A stretch of DNA of 64,000 nucleotides from Deltaproteobacteria bacterium (lineage in GTDB: Bacteria; Myxococcota_A; UBA9160; UBA6930): contig JAPPPQ010000051.1 of the NCBI GenBank assembly GCA_028817435.1, forward strand, positions 62,001 to 126,000. Direction: 5' to 3'. A model generated the notes under the pieces. That model was not told where the DNA came from. It ran no database searches and worked only from the letters and a program-made list of their open reading frames with translations. A program made the translations under genes and the position numbers. Shown here one piece after another: positions 4,202 to 43,803 of this stretch. Every line of letters starts with the position of its first letter. The first letter of the stretch is position 1.

Positions 4202-5488
4202 TCAACGCGGGGCGGCTACGAAGTGGGCGAAGACGCTGTCGGCCAAAGGCCAGGCGCGGGGGGTGAGGCGCAGGTCGCCGCCGGGGCTTTCGGCGAGCAG
4301 GCCGGCGGACAGCAATTCGTCAATGGCGGCGGCGAACCAGCGCCGGGGCGGCGCGCCGAATTCGGCGGCAAAGGCCGCCGCCGCCAGGCCCTCGCGCTGC
4401 CGCAGCGCCAAAAAAGCGGCCTCGCCCCTGGCGGTGGGGCCGTCGAGCACTTCGCGCACCGGCGGGCACAGCCCGCCGCCCGCCGCACCCGCGCCGCCCG
4501 CCGCGCCGTCCGCCGCGCCTGCGCGCGCTCTCGCTGCCGCCGATTCTGCGCCTGCCGCGCCCGCCGCCGGGGCGGATTCGATGCGCGCGAGCCAGGCGGA
4601 AAGGCCGCGCTCGTTGGCGCTGCGCGCGCCATAGGGAGCGCCGGGGCCGGGCGGCTCGCTGCTGTGCGCGCCGGGGCCGAGTCCCAGGACGGGCTGGCGG
4701 CGCCAGTAGCGGCGGTTGTGCCGGGCCTCGCAGCCGGGGCGGGCAAAGCTCGAAAGCTCGTAGCGGCGCAGCCCGGCGGCCTCCAGGCGCTGGGCCAGGG
4801 CAGACATCATCCCGGCGCAGGCGTCATCGCCGGGCAGCCGGACGCGCCCCTCTGCCACCGCCCGCGCCAGCGGCGTGCCCGGCTCCACGGTCAGCGCGTA
4901 GGCGGAAATATGCTCCGGGCCGTGGGCCAGGGCCGCCTCGGCATCGCGCAGCACATCGGCCTCATTTTGCCCCGGCGCGCCGAAAATCAGGTCCAGCGAA
5001 ATGCGCCGGAAGCCCGCCGCCCTTGCCGCCCGCAGCGTCCGGTGGCAATCCGCCGCCGGGTGGGCGCGCCCCAGCCGGCGCAGCACGGCATCGCCAAAGG
5101 ACTGCACGCCAATGGAGAGGCGGCTCACCCCCGCCGCGCGGAAGCCCGGCAGCCGCTCGCATTCCAGCGTCCCCGGGTTGAGCTCCAGGGTGACTTCCGC
5201 GGGCTCGCCGGGGAAGGCCGCCCGCAGCGCGGCGAGGACGCGGGCCAGCGTTTCCGGGCGCAGCAGCGAGGGCGTCCCGCCGCCCAGGTAAATGGTCTCC
5301 AGGCTGCGCCCGGCGCAGGACGCCCGGCGGCCCTCGAGCTCGCGCAGCAGCGCGGCCAGGTAGCGCGCTTCCCGCGCCGCGCCCAGCGGCCCCCGCCCCG
5401 CTGCCACCACGGCGAAATCGCAGTAAGGGCACACCCTCTCGCAAAAAGGCACATGCACATAAACGCCCAGATCGCCCCCGCCGCTCAT
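4202..5488 (-). CDS. hemW: Radical SAM coproporphyrinogen III oxidase-like protein HemW
   Basis: LGVYVHVPFCERVCPYCDF radical SAM CxxxCxxC, ETIYLGGGTPSLL, SIGVQSFGD. Confidence 0.9.
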   Translation of the reverse strand: MSGGGDLGVYVHVPFCERVCPYCDFAVVAAGRGPLGAAREARYLAALLRELEGRRASCAGRSLETIYLGGGTPSLLRPETLARVLAALRAAFPGEPAEVTLELNPGTLECERLPGFRAAGVSRLSIGVQSFGDAVLRRLGRAHPAADCHRTLRAARAAGFRRISLDLIFGAPGQNEADVLRDAEAALAHGPEHISAYALTVEPGTPLARAVAEGRVRLPGDDACAGMMSALAQRLEAAGLRRYELSSFARPGCEARHNRRYWRRQPVLGLGPGAHSSEPPGPGAPYGARSANERGLSAWLARIESAPAAGAAGAESAAARARAGAADGAAGGAGAAGGGLCPPVREVLDGPTARGEAAFLALRQREGLAAAAFAAEFGAPPRRWFAAAIDELLSAGLLAESPGGDLRLTPRAWPLADSVFAHFVAAPR

Positions 5489-5529
5489 TCCGGCGGAGCA
5501 TAGGCGCGCGCTGCTAGAATGCCGCCGCT

Positions 5530-8211
5530 TTGTCCGCCGCCCGCCGCTCCGCCGCATCGGCCGTCCGCAGTGAAGTGCTGCCGGGGGGAACGGGGGTGCT
5601 GTTGCGCGAATCCCGCGGCGCGCCGGTGGTGGAGGTGCAGCTCTGGGCGCGCAGCGGCTCTGCCGACGAAGCCGCAGGCGAGCACGGCCTGGCGCACTTT
5701 CTGGAGCATATGCTCTTCAAGGGCACGGCCACGCGGGGCGTGGGCGAGATTGCCGGAGCCATTGAGGGCGCGGGCGGGAGCATCAACGCCTACACCTCGT
5801 TCGATGTCACCTGCTACCACGCCACTTTGCCCGGCGACGCGCTGGAGCTGGGCATCGAGGTGCTCTGCGACGCCGTGCTGAATCCGGCCTTCGACCCCGG
5901 CGAACTGAAGCGCGAGATTGAAGTGGTGCTGGAAGAGATCGGGCGCTCCGACGACAATCCGCACCATGTGCTCTCCGATGCGCTGTTTGCCGAGAGCTAT
6001 CGCGTGCATCCCTATGGCCGCCCCATTTTGGGAACCCGCGAGAGCGTTGCCGCAATTACCCCCGAGGCGGTGCGCGGCTTTCACCGGCGGCATTATGCGC
6101 CGGGCAATCTGGTGGCGGCGCTGGCGGGCGATTTCGACGGGCCGCGCGCGCTTGCGCTGCTGGCCGCCGCCTTTGAGGGCGCTTCGCCCGGCCCGCGGCT
6201 GCCGAGAAAGCGGCCGGTGGAGCCGGAGCAGCCGCGCCTGCGCAGCCGCCTGCTGGCGCGGCCCTTCGAGCGCGCCAGCCTGGAGTGCTCCTGGCCCGCC
6301 GTGCCGCTGCGCCACCCCGATTCGCCGCTGCTCGATATGCTCGCCTTCATTCTGGGCGGTGGCGAAAGCGCCCGGCTGCTGCGCCGGGTGAAGGAAGAAC
6401 TGGGACTCGCCGACCGCGTGGATGCCTCCTGCTACACGCCGCTGGACGCCGGCGTCTTCGGCGTGGCGCTGGATTGCCAGGCCGAAAGCGCCGCCCCGGC
6501 TCTGGAAGCCGTGCTGCGCGAAACCGAGCGGCTGCGGCGCGAGCCCGTTTCGGAAGAAGAGCTGGACCGCGCGCGCCGCAATTTTCTGGCCACCCGCGCC
6601 TGGGAGCGCGAGAGCGTCTCGGGCATGGCGCACAAAATGGGCAACAGCCTGTTGCTGGCGGGCGATGCGGATTACGAAGACGCCTGGCTGGCCCGGGTGC
6701 GCGCGGCCACGCAGCAGGATTTGCTGCGCGTGGCGCAGGAATGGCTGCCGCCTGCGCGCATTACCCTGGCCGCGGTGCTGCCGGAGTCTCAGGCGAATGC
6801 CCTCGACTCTGCCGGGGTGGCCGCCGCGGTGCAGCGGGGCTGCGAGGCCACGGCGCGGCTCTTTGCCGCGCCGCGCGCGCTGTCTGCCGCGCACGCGGCG
6901 CGCCCGGCGCGCGCCGCCGGGTCTGCGGAGCCGCGCGGGGCCGCGGCCGCGGCAGATGCGGCCGAAGCCGCGGCGCGCTGCGCCGAGGCCGGCATTCACG
7001 GCTACACGCTGGCCAACGGCGTGCGCATCTTCGTGCAGCCGCGCCGTTCGAATCCCGTGGTGGCGGCGCGGGCGGCGCTGATTGGCGGCCAGCTTGCCGA
7101 GGACGAGGAATCGGCGGGGCTCTCGCAGTTTCTCGCCGGTATGTGGCTGCGCGGCACGGCCAGCCGCTCGGCGGCAGATTTCGCCGCCCGGGTGGAATCG
7201 CTGGCCGCCGATGTGGATGGCTTTTCGGGCCGCAACAGCAGCGGCCTGAGCCTCGATTGCACCGTGGAGCAGTTTCCCGCCACCCTCGACCTTTTCGCCG
7301 AGGCGCTGCTTGCGCCGGCCTTTGCGCAGGAAGAGATTGAGCGCGAGCGCCGCGACACGCTGGCCGCCATTGCCCGGCGGCAAGATCGGCTCTCGGCCCG
7401 CGCCATGGATCTGTTTGCGCGCACGCACTTTGCGCGCCATCCCTATCGGCTGCCGCTGGCCGGCAGCGCCGAAACCGTGGCGCGCTTTGACCGCGCGCAA
7501 ATTGCCGCGCATCACCAGCGCCTGGTGCGCGGCGGCAACCTGGTCATTGCCGTGGCGGGCGATGTGGAGCCCGCCGCCGCCGCCGCCGCGGTGGCCCGCC
7601 GCTTCGGCGCGCTGCCCGAAGGCCCGCCGCCGCCGCTGCCCCCCGCCGAGCCCGCGCCCACTGCGCCGCGCCGCGCCGCCGAAAAGCTTTCGCGCGCGCA
7701 GGTGCATCTGGTGACGGGCTTCCGCGGCCTCGCCCTGGACGATGCCGACCGCCCCGCCCTGGAAGTGCTGGTGCAACTGCTCGGCGGCCACAGCGGGCGG
7801 CTCTTCATGGAATTGCGCGAGCGCCAGGGACTCGCCTACACGGTGAGCGCCTTTGAGATCGCGGGCCTGGCGCCGGGCTGGTTCGCCATTTACATGGGCA
7901 CCGCGCCGGAGAAAGCCGAACAGGCGCTGGCCGGAATGCGCGACGCCCTGCACCGCGTCTGCGATTCCCCCCCGCCCACCGAAGAATTCGAGCGCGCGCG
8001 CCGCTGCCTGATCGGCAATCACGCCATCTCCCGCCAGCGCAGCTCCACCCGCGCCATGCACATGGCGCTGGACGCCAGCTACGGCCTCGGCGCAGCCGCC
8101 GACGAATTCCACCCCGAACAACTGCGCGCCGTCCGCCCCGAAGATGTCCTGCGCACCGCCCGCCGCATCATCAATTTCCAAACCGAAACCACCGCCGAAA
8201 TCCGCGCCTAG
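5530..8211 (+). CDS. M16 family zinc metallopeptidase (two fused M16 halves)
   Basis: HGLAHFLEHMLFKGT (HxxEH) in N half; second M16-like domain in C half without HxxEH; TTG start. Confidence 0.9.
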   Translation: MSAARRSAASAVRSEVLPGGTGVLLRESRGAPVVEVQLWARSGSADEAAGEHGLAHFLEHMLFKGTATRGVGEIAGAIEGAGGSINAYTSFDVTCYHATLPGDALELGIEVLCDAVLNPAFDPGELKREIEVVLEEIGRSDDNPHHVLSDALFAESYRVHPYGRPILGTRESVAAITPEAVRGFHRRHYAPGNLVAALAGDFDGPRALALLAAAFEGASPGPRLPRKRPVEPEQPRLRSRLLARPFERASLECSWPAVPLRHPDSPLLDMLAFILGGGESARLLRRVKEELGLADRVDASCYTPLDAGVFGVALDCQAESAAPALEAVLRETERLRREPVSEEELDRARRNFLATRAWERESVSGMAHKMGNSLLLAGDADYEDAWLARVRAATQQDLLRVAQEWLPPARITLAAVLPESQANALDSAGVAAAVQRGCEATARLFAAPRALSAAHAARPARAAGSAEPRGAAAAADAAEAAARCAEAGIHGYTLANGVRIFVQPRRSNPVVAARAALIGGQLAEDEESAGLSQFLAGMWLRGTASRSAADFAARVESLAADVDGFSGRNSSGLSLDCTVEQFPATLDLFAEALLAPAFAQEEIERERRDTLAAIARRQDRLSARAMDLFARTHFARHPYRLPLAGSAETVARFDRAQIAAHHQRLVRGGNLVIAVAGDVEPAAAAAAVARRFGALPEGPPPPLPPAEPAPTAPRRAAEKLSRAQVHLVTGFRGLALDDADRPALEVLVQLLGGHSGRLFMELRERQGLAYTVSAFEIAGLAPGWFAIYMGTAPEKAEQALAGMRDALHRVCDSPPPTEEFERARRCLIGNHAISRQRSSTRAMHMALDASYGLGAAADEFHPEQLRAVRPEDVLRTARRIINFQTETTAEIRA

Positions 8212-32351: not shown

Positions 32352-33457
32352 GGCTTCTCCCTTTGCAGTGCGGTGGTGTCGCCGGCCAGCAATTGCGCCA
32401 GCGGGCGGCTGCCGCTGAACTTGGAAAGCAGCATTTTCAGCACCGCCGTCATGGGCGTCGCCAGCAGCATGCCCACCACGCCCCACAGCATTCCCCAGAC
32501 AATCAACCCAATCAGCACCGCCACCGGGTGCAGGCCCAGCGAATCGCCCACCAGCTTCGGTTCAAGCACGCTGCCCATGGCGAATTGAATCGCCGCGGGC
32601 AGCACAATGGCCAGCACCGCCGCCACCGGCCCCACTTCGGGCGAGACAATCACCACCGGCAGTGGCAGCAAAGTCGAAATAAGCGAGCCCACATTGGGAA
32701 TGAAGTTCAGCAAGAAGGCCATGACGCCGAAGGCCATGGCCAACGGCACGCCCAGCAAAAACAGCGCGCTCCCCACCAGCACGCCGGTGGCGGCAGAAAT
32801 AAGCAGCTTCGAGACCAGATAGCTTTCCACCTGCACGCGCACCTCGCCCCAAATGCCCGCCGCGCGCCCGCGCGTGCCGCCGCCGGTCACCAGAAACAGC
32901 ACGAAAATCAGCACCAGCAGCGATTGCGAAAACAGGTTGACAATGGCGTTGGCAATTCTCGTCAGCAGCCCGCCGACGGTTTCCACCGGAATGCTGCGCA
33001 ATCGCTCCTGCTCGGTGCCCAGCATCGCGCGAAATTCGCCGGGCAGCCCGTTGTAAAGGCGATCCAGCAATTCGCCCAGTTGCTCGCCGTAAAGATCGGC
33101 GTTGGCGGCAAGCTGCGCCACCGAAGCGCTGAGCAGCGCGCCAAGCCCCGCCAGCGCGCCCAGGCCCAGCAGCGCCACAACAGGCAGGGCCAAGGCCCGC
33201 GGCGCGCGCAGGCGCTGCAGCGTTTCGACGCACAGCCCGAGCCCCAGCGAAATGACGAGAGAGAGCACAAAGGGAATCATCACCGGCCGCAGCCAGCGCA
33301 GTGCGAACGCGCCCGCCACCGTCGCCAGCACCAGCAGGCACACCGTCTGCACCCGCATTTCCCGGCTCGCGGCGCGCCCGCCCGCTCCGCTCACTTCGCC
33401 CGCTCCGCCCGTTTCGCTCACCCGCGCCAGCATAGCCCGGCTGCGCCCCCCGGACAC
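32348..33457 (-). CDS. AI-2E family transporter / PerM-like permease
   Basis: LRWLRPVMIPFVLSLVISLGL..; VGSLISTLLPLPVV; GDSLGLHPVAVLIGLIVWGMLWGVVGMLLATPMTAVLK. Confidence 0.88.
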   Translation of the reverse strand: MSGGRSRAMLARVSETGGAGEVSGAGGRAASREMRVQTVCLLVLATVAGAFALRWLRPVMIPFVLSLVISLGLGLCVETLQRLRAPRALALPVVALLGLGALAGLGALLSASVAQLAANADLYGEQLGELLDRLYNGLPGEFRAMLGTEQERLRSIPVETVGGLLTRIANAIVNLFSQSLLVLIFVLFLVTGGGTRGRAAGIWGEVRVQVESYLVSKLLISAATGVLVGSALFLLGVPLAMAFGVMAFLLNFIPNVGSLISTLLPLPVVIVSPEVGPVAAVLAIVLPAAIQFAMGSVLEPKLVGDSLGLHPVAVLIGLIVWGMLWGVVGMLLATPMTAVLKMLLSKFSGSRPLAQLLAGDTTALQREKP

Positions 33458-33494
33458 GGCGGGAAACCGCCGCCGCCGCGCCTACAATGGCGCC

Positions 33495-34400
33495 ATGCCC
33501 GCGCGCCGGCCGCTTCCCCATTGCACGCTCTTCACCGGCGATAACCTGCAGCTCATGCGCCGCGCAGCCGGCGGCAGCGTAGATCTCATCTACCTCGATC
33601 CGCCCTTCAACAGCCGCCGCCACCACCGCGCGCCCGGCGGGGCCGAGGCCGCGGGCGCAGCGTTCCGGGACGCCTGGACCCCGGAAGATGCGCGGACGCA
33701 GTGGCAGGACGAACTCGAGCGAGCGCGCCCCGGCCTCGCGCAGTTGCTCTGCGCAGTCGCGCGCCGTCCCGGCGACCGCGCCTATCTGCTCTACATGGCG
33801 GTGCGTCTGCTCCAAATGCACCGCCTGCTAAAGCCCGAAGGCTCCATTTACCTGCACTGCGACCCCACCATGAGCCACGCGCTCAAACTGCTGATGGATG
33901 CCATCTTCGGCGACGGCGGCGCAGACCGGCGCGCCCCCGGTTTTCGCAACGAGATTGCCTGGTGCTACGGACTCGGCGGATCGAGCCGCCGCTATTACCC
34001 CAGAAAGCACGACACCATCTTTTGGTATAGCAAGGGCGCGCGCTGGTTCTTCAATCCGCCCATGGTTCCCGCAACCTCCCGCAAACTGCGCGGCAGGCAG
34101 AAGAAGTGCCCCGACCACTGGAACATCCCCGCGCTCAACAATATGTCGAAAGAGCGCACCGGCTACCCCACGCAAAAGCCCCTGGCCCTGCTGCACCGCA
34201 TCATCGCCGCGGGCAGCGCGCCGGGCAGCTTCATACTCGACCCCTTTTGCGGCAGCGCCACCACCCTGCTCGCCGCCCAACTGCTGCACCGCCGCTGGTG
34301 CGGCGCAGACCTCAGCCCCCACGCCACCCACCTGGCCGCCCGCCGCCTCACCCTCGAATCCCCCGGCTGCCAGGTTGCCCTGCGCGCCGTCGAGGGGTGA
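33495..34400 (+). CDS. DNA methyltransferase (N6A/N4C, DPPF before FCGSATT order)
   Basis: MPARRPLPHCTLFTGDNLQLMRRAAGGSVDLIYLDPPFNSRR..; TGYPTQKPLALLHRIIAAGSAPGSFILDPFCGSATTLLAAQLLHRRWCGADLS. ATG at 33495. Confidence 0.88.
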   Translation: MPARRPLPHCTLFTGDNLQLMRRAAGGSVDLIYLDPPFNSRRHHRAPGGAEAAGAAFRDAWTPEDARTQWQDELERARPGLAQLLCAVARRPGDRAYLLYMAVRLLQMHRLLKPEGSIYLHCDPTMSHALKLLMDAIFGDGGADRRAPGFRNEIAWCYGLGGSSRRYYPRKHDTIFWYSKGARWFFNPPMVPATSRKLRGRQKKCPDHWNIPALNNMSKERTGYPTQKPLALLHRIIAAGSAPGSFILDPFCGSATTLLAAQLLHRRWCGADLSPHATHLAARRLTLESPGCQVALRAVEG

Positions 34401-34434: not shown

Positions 34435-34546
34435 AAAAAAGACTTGGGGCACCAGGCCGAGACCTGGTGCCCCGTATCGGGCGGCCTTCCCTTTCGGTAA
34501 GGCCTAGTTGCCGATAAGTCCCCACCTATCGGAATGCCTGATACAA
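34435..34546 (-). ncRNA. tracrRNA of the Cas9 system
   Basis: Minus strand: GTATCAGGCATTCCGATAGGTGGGGACTTATCGGCAAC anti-repeat, then hairpin GGCCTTACC-GAAA-GGGAAGGCC, then terminator GGGGCACCAGG-TCTCGG-CCTGGTGCCCC-AAGTC-TTTTTT. Confidence 0.88.
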
Positions 34547-34547
34547 T
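34507..34547 (+). promoter_or_regulatory. Degenerate CRISPR repeat (complement of anti-repeat) ending in extended -10 TGATACAAT directed at cas9
   Basis: GTTGCCGATAAGTCCCCACCTATCGGAATGCCTGATACAAT aligned to repeat GTTCCGATACCCCACCATCGGAATGCCTGATATACT. Confidence 0.6.
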
Positions 34548-34582: not shown

Positions 34583-37500
34583 GTGAAATACAGGCTCGGG
34601 CTGGATGTGGGAACCGCCTCTTTGGGCCTGGTTGCCTACAAGTTGGACGCCCAAGGGCGGCCGGTTTCCATCCCCTACCACTCGGTCCGCATCTTCGATG
34701 AGCCGTTGCTACCGCCCGGCCAAGGGGGCGGCATCGGCGAGCTCAAGCAGGCCGCCCGGCGCAAGACTCGACAGCAAATGCGCCTGCATCAGCGGCGCGC
34801 CCGCAGGCTTCGCAAGCTCGCACACCTCGCGCACCTGCTCGGCATTGACCCTGAGGCGGTAGCGCGCCGGAGGAAGCCGCACATCCTCGAGGTTCGCGCC
34901 CGGGCCGCTACGGAAAAGGTGGATTTGGAAGACCTGCTCCGCATTTTCCTGCACCTTTCCAAACGGCGTGGCTATGCCGGAATTTTCCGCGCCGGGAAGG
35001 GTGGCGATATGGGGCAGGTGCAGACGGGAATCGGCGACATCCGGAAGAAGATGGACGAGGCCGGCTGCGAGACTCTGGGGGAGTATCTCTGGCATCGGCA
35101 CCGGCAGGGACAGGATCTGCGTTTGAAGGGCCACGGATTGTATGCCGACAGGGAAATGATCTTCAACGAATTCGACCGAATCTGGGCCAGGCAGGAGAGG
35201 GAGCATAAGCAGCTCTGTGGAGAGCACAAAGGCCGTCCGCTGCGAAAGACATTCGAAGAGGCAATTTTCTACCAGCGGCCCATTCGCATTCTCAGTGCGG
35301 GAAATTGCGAACTGGAGACCAGCCTGCCCCGCTCGCCCTTGGTGCAGCCCGCATATCAGGAATTCCGCATTGAAAAGCAGATTGCAGATTTGCGCTGGGC
35401 GAAAAAGGGTCGGCGCCATCCGAAGCCCCTTGAAGAGCCTGCGAAACAGGTCATTCGCAAACTGCTTTCCGAAAACGAGAGGGTGAAATTCGAGGAGATT
35501 TACAAAGCTCTTGAGAAAACGGGAATTCCCCCTGCACCCGACGAGTATCTGAATTTGTCTGAAGGCGGCCGCGAAGACCTGCACGGGAATGTGACGAATG
35601 CCTGTATGAAGAAGCTCGGCCTGGAGTCAGAGTGGCAGAGTCTCACAGATGGCCACCAAATTGCGGCGCTCAACCTGCTCGCCAACACTGGTTCGCCCGA
35701 TATTTTTTATGCACGGAATTGGCATGAGAATATCCCCAAGGGCAAGAAGCGCGCCGACGGGACGCCTGAATACCGGTGCATTCCAGGCAAAGTGGTGAAT
35801 TTCATCAACAGCATGGTCAAAATGGAGAAACTCGACTGGCTTTCGAAGATGGGTTTCCAAGCCGGGCGTAGCCCGTATTCGATAAAAGCGCTGCGTCGGC
35901 TCACCGCTGCTATGCGGGAACAGAATCTCGACGAAGCAGACGCCAAAGCTCTGTTGTATCCCCGAGCAGCAAAGGCCGTCAGCCGGGGAGAGATGCAGGG
36001 AGAATTGCCGCCCCACCAGCATACGAGGAATGTCGTTGTGGATGTGTCGCTGCGCCAGGTTCGGCGAGAGGTGAATGCCGCCATTCGGAAACTCGGCGGC
36101 CCGCCGGACAGCGTGATCATTGAGCTTTCCAGGGATATGCCGTTGGGCGTGAAGCGCCGCGGAGAGATTGTGGACGGAATCAATAAGAACCAGAGGGCCA
36201 GACAGAAGGCAGCACGGGAAATTGAAAAGGAGACGGGGAAGGCAGCATCGAATGTTGCCATTATGAACTATCTGCTGTGGAGAGAACAGGATGAGCAATG
36301 CCCCTATTGTGGTAAGGATATCAGCTTGCCTGATGCCCTGGACGAGTTGACAACCAATCGCGATCATATTATCCCCCGGTCTATTACGCGGATTGGCAAG
36401 AGCAGGAATTATCTCGTTCTCGTATGTCATTCGTGCAACGACGAGAAGGGAGCGCGGACTCCGAGGGAGAAGTGGGGTGACGACCCCGAGCGCTGGAAGG
36501 TGATTGAAAAGCAGGCAAAGCGGCTTGGGAAGAAAAAGCTGCTCGGGAAAATGCGGCAGATTCTCTCCAGGGAGAGTGGCGAATCGCTGCTCGACGACGA
36601 AGCGATTGGAGATTTCTCCGCTCGTCAATTGCAGGAAACATCATGGATTGCCAAAAGCTGTGCGCAGTGGATGGGGATGATCTGTTCCAATGTGGCGGTG
36701 AGTCGGGGAATTTTGACTGAGTCTCTGCGCCGCAAATGGGGGCTGGATACCGTGATTCCCGAGGTGCGATTGGAAAAGAAGCTGCCCGTTTTTGACAGGG
36801 AGAAGCAACTGATTACGCCGGAAGACTTTGAGCGTCACCGCGCGTATTGGGAGGAAAGGGGAGAAGAGGGGGATTCCGGTAAGACTCATCGCCGAATTGA
36901 CAAGCGCATTGACCATCGCCACCACTTGATAGACGCCTTGGTGATTGGTCTCACCAGCCGTGGCCTCTACCAGAAAATGGCGCAAGCCTACAAAAGGGAG
37001 GCCGAAAGGACGGCTTCTCCTGCCGACCGGCGCAGCATTCCCCTGCGGGCGAAGACTCCGATCGCTGACATTAGAAATCTGGCGCTCGATCTCGTTCGCA
37101 ACTGCAATCTCACACATAAGCGCGACCGATGGCCTGCCGGTCCCTTTTTCGATTTGAATCCTGTTTCGATATATGAAGGGCAATTTTCTCAGCGTTGGGA
37201 ATTGACCAAGCTCGCCAAAAAGCTTTCCGATAAGGTTTCCGACAATCCCGAGAAAAGGGCCAAGGATCTGGCGGCGGGGTTGAAGCAAATCAATAAAATT
37301 GCGAACCCGTCGACCCGCGAAATTGTCAGGCGGGCATATGAAGAGCGCATCTCCACCGGGAAGAGCCCCAAGCAGGCGCTCTCCATGCCGATTCTTGATA
37401 TGCGATTCAATAAGCGATTTGGGACGCAGATTCGGCGGGTTTTGGTGAGATACGATGAGAAGGCCAAGGGACAGATTACCGTGAAGCATGGGCGGAATGG

Positions 37501-37855
37501 GGAATTGAAGAAGTATCTGAAAACGGAGGGATACGCTTGGCTGGAATGGGACGCTCAAAAGGGAGAGGCGCGCCTGGTGACTCTGTATGAGGCTATGAAA
37601 TCCGGCCGGTCGGAAGCGCCGAAGGGGGTTCGTTTCTTCAAGGGCGATACGGTTCTCAATGCCAGTGACGAAAAGCGTTATGTCGTTCGTCATATCAAGG
37701 CCGAGAAGGGTGGGTGCCTGGTTTTGATTCTTCACACTGAAACCAGAGAGGTTAAGCACATGGACAGCGATTCGGGGAAAAAGTGGGTTTCGGGCAAGAA
37801 TTTGTCCAAGCTCAGCTTGATTTCCGATGACTGGCCGCCGCATTCTTCTGAGTGA
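34583..37855 (+). CDS. cas9: CRISPR-associated endonuclease Cas9 (type II-C-like, 1090 aa)
   Basis: RuvC-I YRLGLDVGTASLGLVAYKL; Arg-rich bridge helix ARRKTRQQMRLHQRRARRLRKL; RuvC-II DSVIIELSRDMPLG; HNH CPYCGKDI..NRDHIIPRS..CHSCNDEKG; RuvC-III DHRHHLIDALVIGL. GTG start. Confidence 0.96.
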   Translation: MKYRLGLDVGTASLGLVAYKLDAQGRPVSIPYHSVRIFDEPLLPPGQGGGIGELKQAARRKTRQQMRLHQRRARRLRKLAHLAHLLGIDPEAVARRRKPHILEVRARAATEKVDLEDLLRIFLHLSKRRGYAGIFRAGKGGDMGQVQTGIGDIRKKMDEAGCETLGEYLWHRHRQGQDLRLKGHGLYADREMIFNEFDRIWARQEREHKQLCGEHKGRPLRKTFEEAIFYQRPIRILSAGNCELETSLPRSPLVQPAYQEFRIEKQIADLRWAKKGRRHPKPLEEPAKQVIRKLLSENERVKFEEIYKALEKTGIPPAPDEYLNLSEGGREDLHGNVTNACMKKLGLESEWQSLTDGHQIAALNLLANTGSPDIFYARNWHENIPKGKKRADGTPEYRCIPGKVVNFINSMVKMEKLDWLSKMGFQAGRSPYSIKALRRLTAAMREQNLDEADAKALLYPRAAKAVSRGEMQGELPPHQHTRNVVVDVSLRQVRREVNAAIRKLGGPPDSVIIELSRDMPLGVKRRGEIVDGINKNQRARQKAAREIEKETGKAASNVAIMNYLLWREQDEQCPYCGKDISLPDALDELTTNRDHIIPRSITRIGKSRNYLVLVCHSCNDEKGARTPREKWGDDPERWKVIEKQAKRLGKKKLLGKMRQILSRESGESLLDDEAIGDFSARQLQETSWIAKSCAQWMGMICSNVAVSRGILTESLRRKWGLDTVIPEVRLEKKLPVFDREKQLITPEDFERHRAYWEERGEEGDSGKTHRRIDKRIDHRHHLIDALVIGLTSRGLYQKMAQAYKREAERTASPADRRSIPLRAKTPIADIRNLALDLVRNCNLTHKRDRWPAGPFFDLNPVSIYEGQFSQRWELTKLAKKLSDKVSDNPEKRAKDLAAGLKQINKIANPSTREIVRRAYEERISTGKSPKQALSMPILDMRFNKRFGTQIRRVLVRYDEKAKGQITVKHGRNGELKKYLKTEGYAWLEWDAQKGEARLVTLYEAMKSGRSEAPKGVRFFKGDTVLNASDEKRYVVRHIKAEKGGCLVLILHTETREVKHMDSDSGKKWVSGKNLSKLSLISDDWPPHSSE

Positions 37856-37882
37856 GAACGCCGTTCCCGTGGCCGAGAAAAG

Positions 37883-37925
37883 CCCTCAGAGCTGCGTTAA
37901 ATTGAGCCGCTCTGGGGGTTTTTCT
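37883..37925. terminator. Bidirectional intrinsic terminator between cas9 (+) and CRISPR array (-)
   Basis: CCCTCAGAGC...GCTCTGGGGG followed by TTTTTCT on +; the minus strand of the same hairpin is followed by CTTTTCTC. Confidence 0.7.
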
Positions 37926-37954
37926 ATTATATATCAGATATTTACAGAATTTCT

Positions 37955-38311
37955 AGTATATCAGGCATTCCGATGGTGGGGTATCGGAACTACAGCGAAA
38001 AGGCGGCGGTGGTGGAAACCAGTATATCAGGCATTCCGATGGTGGGGTATCGGAACGCACTTCGCCGAGCAGAACGCTTTGGGCCGAGTATATCAGGCAT
38101 TCCGATGGTGGGGTATCGGAACATACTGCATCGAAATTGCCACACGGCTTGCAGTATATCAGGCATTCCGATGGTGGGGTATCGGAACAGTTCGTGCTGC
38201 CCGAGAGCGCCGTGGCGCAGTATATCAGGCATTCCGATGGTGGGGTATCGGAACAGGACGAGGCCGAACTGGGAATGGAGCACAAGTATATCAGGCATTC
38301 CGATGGTGGGG
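37955..38311 (-). CRISPR. CRISPR array: five identical 36-bp repeats, one 27-bp truncated repeat, five 30-bp spacers
   Basis: Repeat on + AGTATATCAGGCATTCCGATGGTGGGGTATCGGAAC at 37955, 38021, 38087, 38153, 38219; truncated copy 38285-38311. crRNA orientation is minus (GTTCCGATACCCCACCATCGGAATGCCTGATATACT), set by tracrRNA complementarity. Confidence 0.97.
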
Positions 38312-38317
38312 CGCTGG

Positions 38318-43803
<5,486 letters not shown>

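Follow-up and report, generated by a model that had tools for sequence, protein, structure and literature searches.

The locus described here raises the question of how the crRNAs of a short CRISPR array are transcribed when the array lies immediately behind the housekeeping gene purB. An earlier note on this DNA had proposed that an extended −10 element at the 3′ end of each repeat initiates the crRNAs one at a time and dispenses with a leader promoter. We examined this proposal in the 64-kb window (the whole stretch of DNA analysed) and by comparison with related loci, and found it supported both by the established mode of crRNA transcription in type II-C systems and by comparative tests: the repeat 3′ end is very probably a promoter that starts each crRNA separately. 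The phenomenon is already known for II-C systems (Neisseria, Campylobacter), and this locus is a new example of it.

A type II-C-like locus with no detectable cas1

The locus comprises the following features:

34446–34547, minus strand: tracrRNA with a putative 5′ end, consisting of anti-repeat, hairpins and an intrinsic terminator (34473–34446), divergent from cas9
34583–37855, plus strand: cas9, encoding a type II-C-like protein of 1090 aa (TIGR01865, E=1.6e-106; Pfam RuvC_III, Cas9_a and HNH_4)
37856–37954, no strand assigned: interval between cas9 and the array, with T runs that follow a G+C-rich inverted repeat
37955–38311, minus strand: CRISPR array of five full 36-nt repeats, five 30-nt spacers and one truncated repeat
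38318–39718, minus strand: purB, adenylosuccinate lyase (NF006764, E=9e-209), in an open frame that runs to 40228

The type II assignment follows from a Cas9 with RuvC and HNH domains and a tracrRNA with an anti-repeat. The Cas9 scored 357.8 bits against TIGR01865 (cut-off 100), and its RuvC/HNH positions D8, E514, H595, H780 and D784 align as invariant. Its best solved structure matches are compact Cas9s of about 1055–1095 aa, its nearest relatives in genomes belong to cas9 loci with II-C-like arrays (Devosia MAG, 42% identity; Gallionella MAG, 37%; others near 25–28%), and neither csn2 nor cas4 was found beside cas9, where the neighbours examined were a methyltransferase and purB; the compact II-C assignment was made from these closest matches and gene neighbours. 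The repeats are read on the minus strand and cas9 on the plus strand, the orientation expected of II-C loci, and the leader-distal repeat is degenerate, as is also expected. II-C systems carry cas1 and cas2; here cas1 had no match in the assembly (91.9% complete), and we therefore class the locus as II-C-type but adaptation-less: it comprises effector, tracrRNA and array and is incomplete relative to a full II-C system. Matches to the Cas9 within the host's own order and class were only distant, which suggests that the cas9 locus was gained horizontally. An N6/N4 DNA methyltransferase gene (33102–34400, plus strand, PF01555) lies directly 5′ of the tracrRNA/cas9 pair.

The tracrRNA was located by searching for the complement of the repeat. 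The anti-repeat/repeat duplex has a predicted energy of about −50 to −55 kcal/mol, the tracrRNA fold has a z-score of −5.2, and the region aligns with that of relatives. An Rfam search for the tracrRNA gave no family match and returned two tRNAs only. Exact matches to two of the five spacers and to the repeat core were absent from viral contigs, and over that scan CRISPR activity is unsupported by targets.

An extended −10 element at the end of every repeat

In crRNA direction the array runs on the minus strand, from right to left, with a constant repeat-to-repeat spacing of 66 nt and the following elements:

37955–37990, 38021–38056, 38087–38122, 38153–38188 and 38219–38254, minus strand: full repeats, identical, 36 nt each
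38285–38311, minus strand: truncated first ("extra") repeat of 27 nt, with positions 1–9 missing and 10–36 kept
37955–37963, minus strand: TGATATACT of the last (leader-proximal) repeat, an extended −10 at the repeat 3′ end
38021–38029, 38087–38095, 38153–38161 and 38219–38227, minus strand: identical copies of TGATATACT

The repeat sequence reported in the earlier note, GTTCCGATACCCCACCATCGGAATGCCTGATATACT in crRNA orientation, is correct for the minus strand, and no further copies of it occur elsewhere in the assembly. All six repeats end in TG-A-TATACT as the note had stated, including the truncated one, the sixth copy and the first in crRNA order, which lies at the leader-distal end of the array and retains TGATATACT at 38285–38293. 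At the sequence level, each repeat carries an embedded −10 element in its 3′ terminus.

Promoter statistics were computed over the 64-kb window. The 9-mer TGATATACT occurs six times, always in repeats, with zero occurrences expected from dinucleotide shuffles. When every position on both strands was scored against TGnTATAAT, a sigma-70-type consensus that may not match the preference of the host's sigma factor, eight sites reached at least 7/8 matches: the six repeats, 34539–34547 (plus strand) and 5512–5520 (plus strand). AT-rich −10-like sites are rare in this window because its G+C content is 66.8%. Since the repeats copy one another, the six −10 copies count as a single event, and the argument that the element is more than chance rests on the comparative tests described below, not on its six-fold occurrence. 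A TTGACA-like −35 element at the right spacing is absent from the repeat, in which positions 8–13 read TACCCC; any promoter there would therefore belong to the extended −10 class.

The site at 5512–5520, TGCTAGAAT, is located just 5′ of a large ORF (5530–8211) that matches M16-type peptidase families, with another ORF (4202–5557) divergent from it, and is likely to be an ordinary extended −10 promoter. On the leader side of the array, the stretch following the last repeat (37926–37945, minus strand) includes CTGATATATAAT, which resembles the repeat end and fits a −10; a promoter-like TAGAAA-18-TATAAT arrangement is predicted there, which would fire toward the inverted repeat near the end of cas9.

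The element is conserved among II-C repeats

The comparison set consisted of 47 distinct repeats of II-C-like loci, the repeat of the window included. TAnnnT ended no more than 3 nt from the crRNA 3′ end in 44 of the 47 (shuffles, 8.6%) and was exactly terminal in 38 (81%), while none carried it at the antisense 3′ end. Kinship among loci is only partly corrected for in these repeat counts and in the E-values; when the repeats were clustered by their first 26 nt alone, TAnnnT was present at the 3′ end in 16 of 17 clusters. The TGn extension accompanied it in just 17 of the 47 distinct repeats, so the extended form of the repeat −10 is common, not universal.

Three related repeats illustrate this conservation. 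Those of Photobacterium pectinilyticum (locus L030) and of a Gallionella MAG (L026) are near-identical to the repeat of the window over the 5′ 25 nt (GTTCCGATACCCCACCATCGGAAT) but differ from it in the last 11 nt, and their Cas9 proteins share only 28% (P. pectinilyticum) and 37% (Gallionella) identity with the one described here. The three ends read TGATATACT, TGTTACACT and TGTTAGAAT; they drift, yet TG-n-TAnAnT is kept in all of them. As in the window, the first repeat of the P. pectinilyticum array is damaged, with roughly the first 15 nt overwritten.

Characterised II-C systems provide precedents. In Campylobacter jejuni, each crRNA was found by dRNA-seq to have a start of its own, and the 3′ part of the repeat upstream of it contains a −10 box (PMC3656092, Dugar et al. 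2013). That system shares with the present locus a compact Cas9, a tracrRNA and the placement of the box in each repeat, but it has both cas1 and cas2, its sequences are unrelated in detail, and its starts were measured where ours are predicted. For N. meningitidis, the precedent invoked by the earlier note, PMC7038990 cites individually initiating repeat promoters as experimentally shown (Zhang et al. 2013). For this species, PMC7038990 and PMC5006608 describe an extended −10 in the terminal nine nt of every repeat and no identifiable leader promoter, as found here; the present locus differs in its repeat sequence, in the lack of a detectable cas1, in having a first repeat that is truncated and borders on purB, and in a tracrRNA divergent from cas9. 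The terminal nine nt of the Clostridium cellulolyticum H10 II-C repeat also resemble an extended −10, and sequenced mature crRNAs of that strain contain 23–26 nt of spacer (PMC7038990), a length compatible with transcription beginning some 7 nt inside a 30-nt spacer, as we propose for this array. A study of 650 II-C systems states the repeat-promoter model (PMC12080349).

A different element was observed in Cas9 loci of the class to which a Flavobacteriales MAG (L081) belongs (loci L139–L178). Terminal TAnnnT was present in 1 of their 24 repeats versus 43 of 45 elsewhere, and TAnnTTTG in 12 of 24 versus 0 of 45 (shuffles, 4.3%), at a fixed place 16–17 nt before the repeat end; the repeats of this class are interrelated and the counts are not independent. 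TAnnTTTG is a Bacteroidota promoter motif (PMC10309648). No promoter was reported for the repeats of R. anatipestifer (PMC5006608), and a TTG −33 element has been proposed for F. columnare (PMC8092290). The pattern suggests that the repeat promoter follows the sigma factor of the host.

First repeats decay but spare their 3′ ends

First and last repeats were compared in 33 arrays using a symmetric criterion for the two repeat halves. Last repeats were unchanged. Leader-distal first repeats carried 18.7% changes per site at positions 1–18, 1.35% at 19–27 and 0.34% at 28–36, and all 18 mutated first repeats with a terminal TAnnnT in their consensus had it intact. This is the pattern that a promoter for spacer 1 would require. 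The truncated sixth repeat in the window fits the same pattern and is no oddity, because first repeats in other arrays decay likewise at the 5′ side. In several of these arrays (L030, L040, L057, L089 and others) the 5′ 10–17 nt of the first repeat seem to be truncated or overwritten, and the remainder is intact from about position 21, a kept stretch that exceeds the need of a −10 alone.

These results agree with the finding that extra repeats of II-C arrays are mutated in 60% of cases, mostly in the first 15 nt, for which it was proposed that mutation blocks an extraneous crRNA while the promoter role must stay (PMC12080349). Over repeat positions 1–18, the predicted duplex with the tracrRNA weakens from −24.6 kcal/mol for the full repeat to −19.5 kcal/mol for the truncated one.

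Alternative explanations

The crRNAs might instead derive from a single long precursor, made by transcription running on from purB or from a promoter within that gene and then matured by tracrRNA and RNase III, with the −10 elements unused. The setting invites this explanation, since purB and the array share a strand, the purB stop codon lies 6 nt before the truncated repeat, and neither a terminator nor a −35/−10 promoter was found between the two. We nevertheless consider it unlikely, as it leaves unexplained both the conservation of TAnnnT at the repeat 3′ end across II-C families and the retention of that very end in decayed first repeats. Read-through could coexist with internal starts and add a long precursor to the individually initiated crRNAs.

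Two further explanations attribute the conserved 3′ end to some other constraint and treat its promoter likeness as incidental. Under one, it is a Cas1-Cas2 integration signal that merely looks like a −10, a reading that draws on the fact that the leader-proximal border in II-C systems is the repeat 3′ end (PMC12080349). The same study places the entry of new spacers at the last repeat, which relieves the leader-distal first repeat of integration duty; this repeat, no site of acquisition, has retained the element and decayed in its other half. Moreover, cas1 was not found in this genome (identical repeats by themselves say little), and transcription has been shown to start at such a box in C. 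jejuni. We regard an integration signal as the sole cause as very improbable, but the repeat 3′ end may serve both as promoter and in integration. Under the other explanation, which we give the smallest chance of all, the end is kept for tracrRNA pairing. The anti-repeat at this locus does pair with repeat positions 1–32, reaching into TGATA. Across 40 anti-repeat copies, however, identity to the repeat is 84–100% between positions −26 and −12 but 47–79% over the last six positions. Pairing therefore does not require the repeat 3′ end, which array repeats nonetheless keep, and on this comparison the pairing explanation is already disfavoured. Taken together, these comparisons favour the promoter reading over its rivals.

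A repeat-like −10 element upstream of cas9

The second window site with 7/8 matches to TGnTATAAT outside the array repeats lies within the tracrRNA locus, where the following elements were identified:

34507–34543, plus strand: anti-repeat as plus-strand sequence, a degenerate repeat copy of repeat positions 1–32
34539–34547, plus strand: TGATACAAT, the extended −10 belonging to this repeat-like copy, directed toward cas9, 35 nt before the start codon
34552–34580, minus strand: candidate tracrRNA promoter, TTGACT - 17 nt - CAGCAT, with a weak −10, read from the sequence

TGATACAAT differs from the array-repeat −10 at two hexamer positions and is equally close to the consensus, and may be a cas9 promoter at this locus. 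One could imagine that a single repeat-derived extended −10 serves both the crRNAs and cas9 while the opposite strand of the anti-repeat makes the tracrRNA, an arrangement that we consider somewhat doubtful. As a general II-C rule, an anti-repeat acting as cas9 promoter was rejected: TAnnnT directed toward cas9 occurs in only 16 of 40 copies (background, 4.6%), anti-repeat identity to the repeat drops gradually toward the end, where it is 47%, and of the two nearest relatives Devosia has a weak version of the element (TGATACGAT) and Gallionella has lost it (TGATACGGC). Among relatives, retention of the −10 toward cas9 does not exceed what drift would leave.

Proposed mechanism and implications

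We propose that RNA polymerase, with a sigma-70-type factor recognising the extended −10, would initiate some 7 nt inside each spacer. Each transcript would comprise about 22–24 nt of spacer and then the next repeat, which would pair with the tracrRNA encoded 5′ of cas9, load into Cas9 and undergo trimming, with RNase III as the probable enzyme. The truncated sixth repeat would keep the promoter half for spacer 1, and part of its other half, which would allow an extraneous crRNA to form a complete duplex with the tracrRNA, is missing. The anatomy of the locus, the predicted tracrRNA pairing and the conservation pattern are results of this analysis, whereas transcription starts, processing and function are inferred.

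The locus offers a clean natural case of crRNA transcription without a leader promoter, in an array without cas1 and right behind a housekeeping gene, where even a truncated repeat retains its promoter half. If TGATACAAT does drive cas9, then cas9 and crRNA transcription would be tied to variants of one sequence, and if the Flavobacteriales lead is true, the type of repeat promoter would track the host's sigma factor. The opposite decay of the two kinds of repeat copy, in which first repeats spare the −10 and copies at tracrRNA loci spare the pairing part, separates the constraints of promoter, pairing and integration, and the comparison of first repeats with anti-repeats can be repeated on larger sets.
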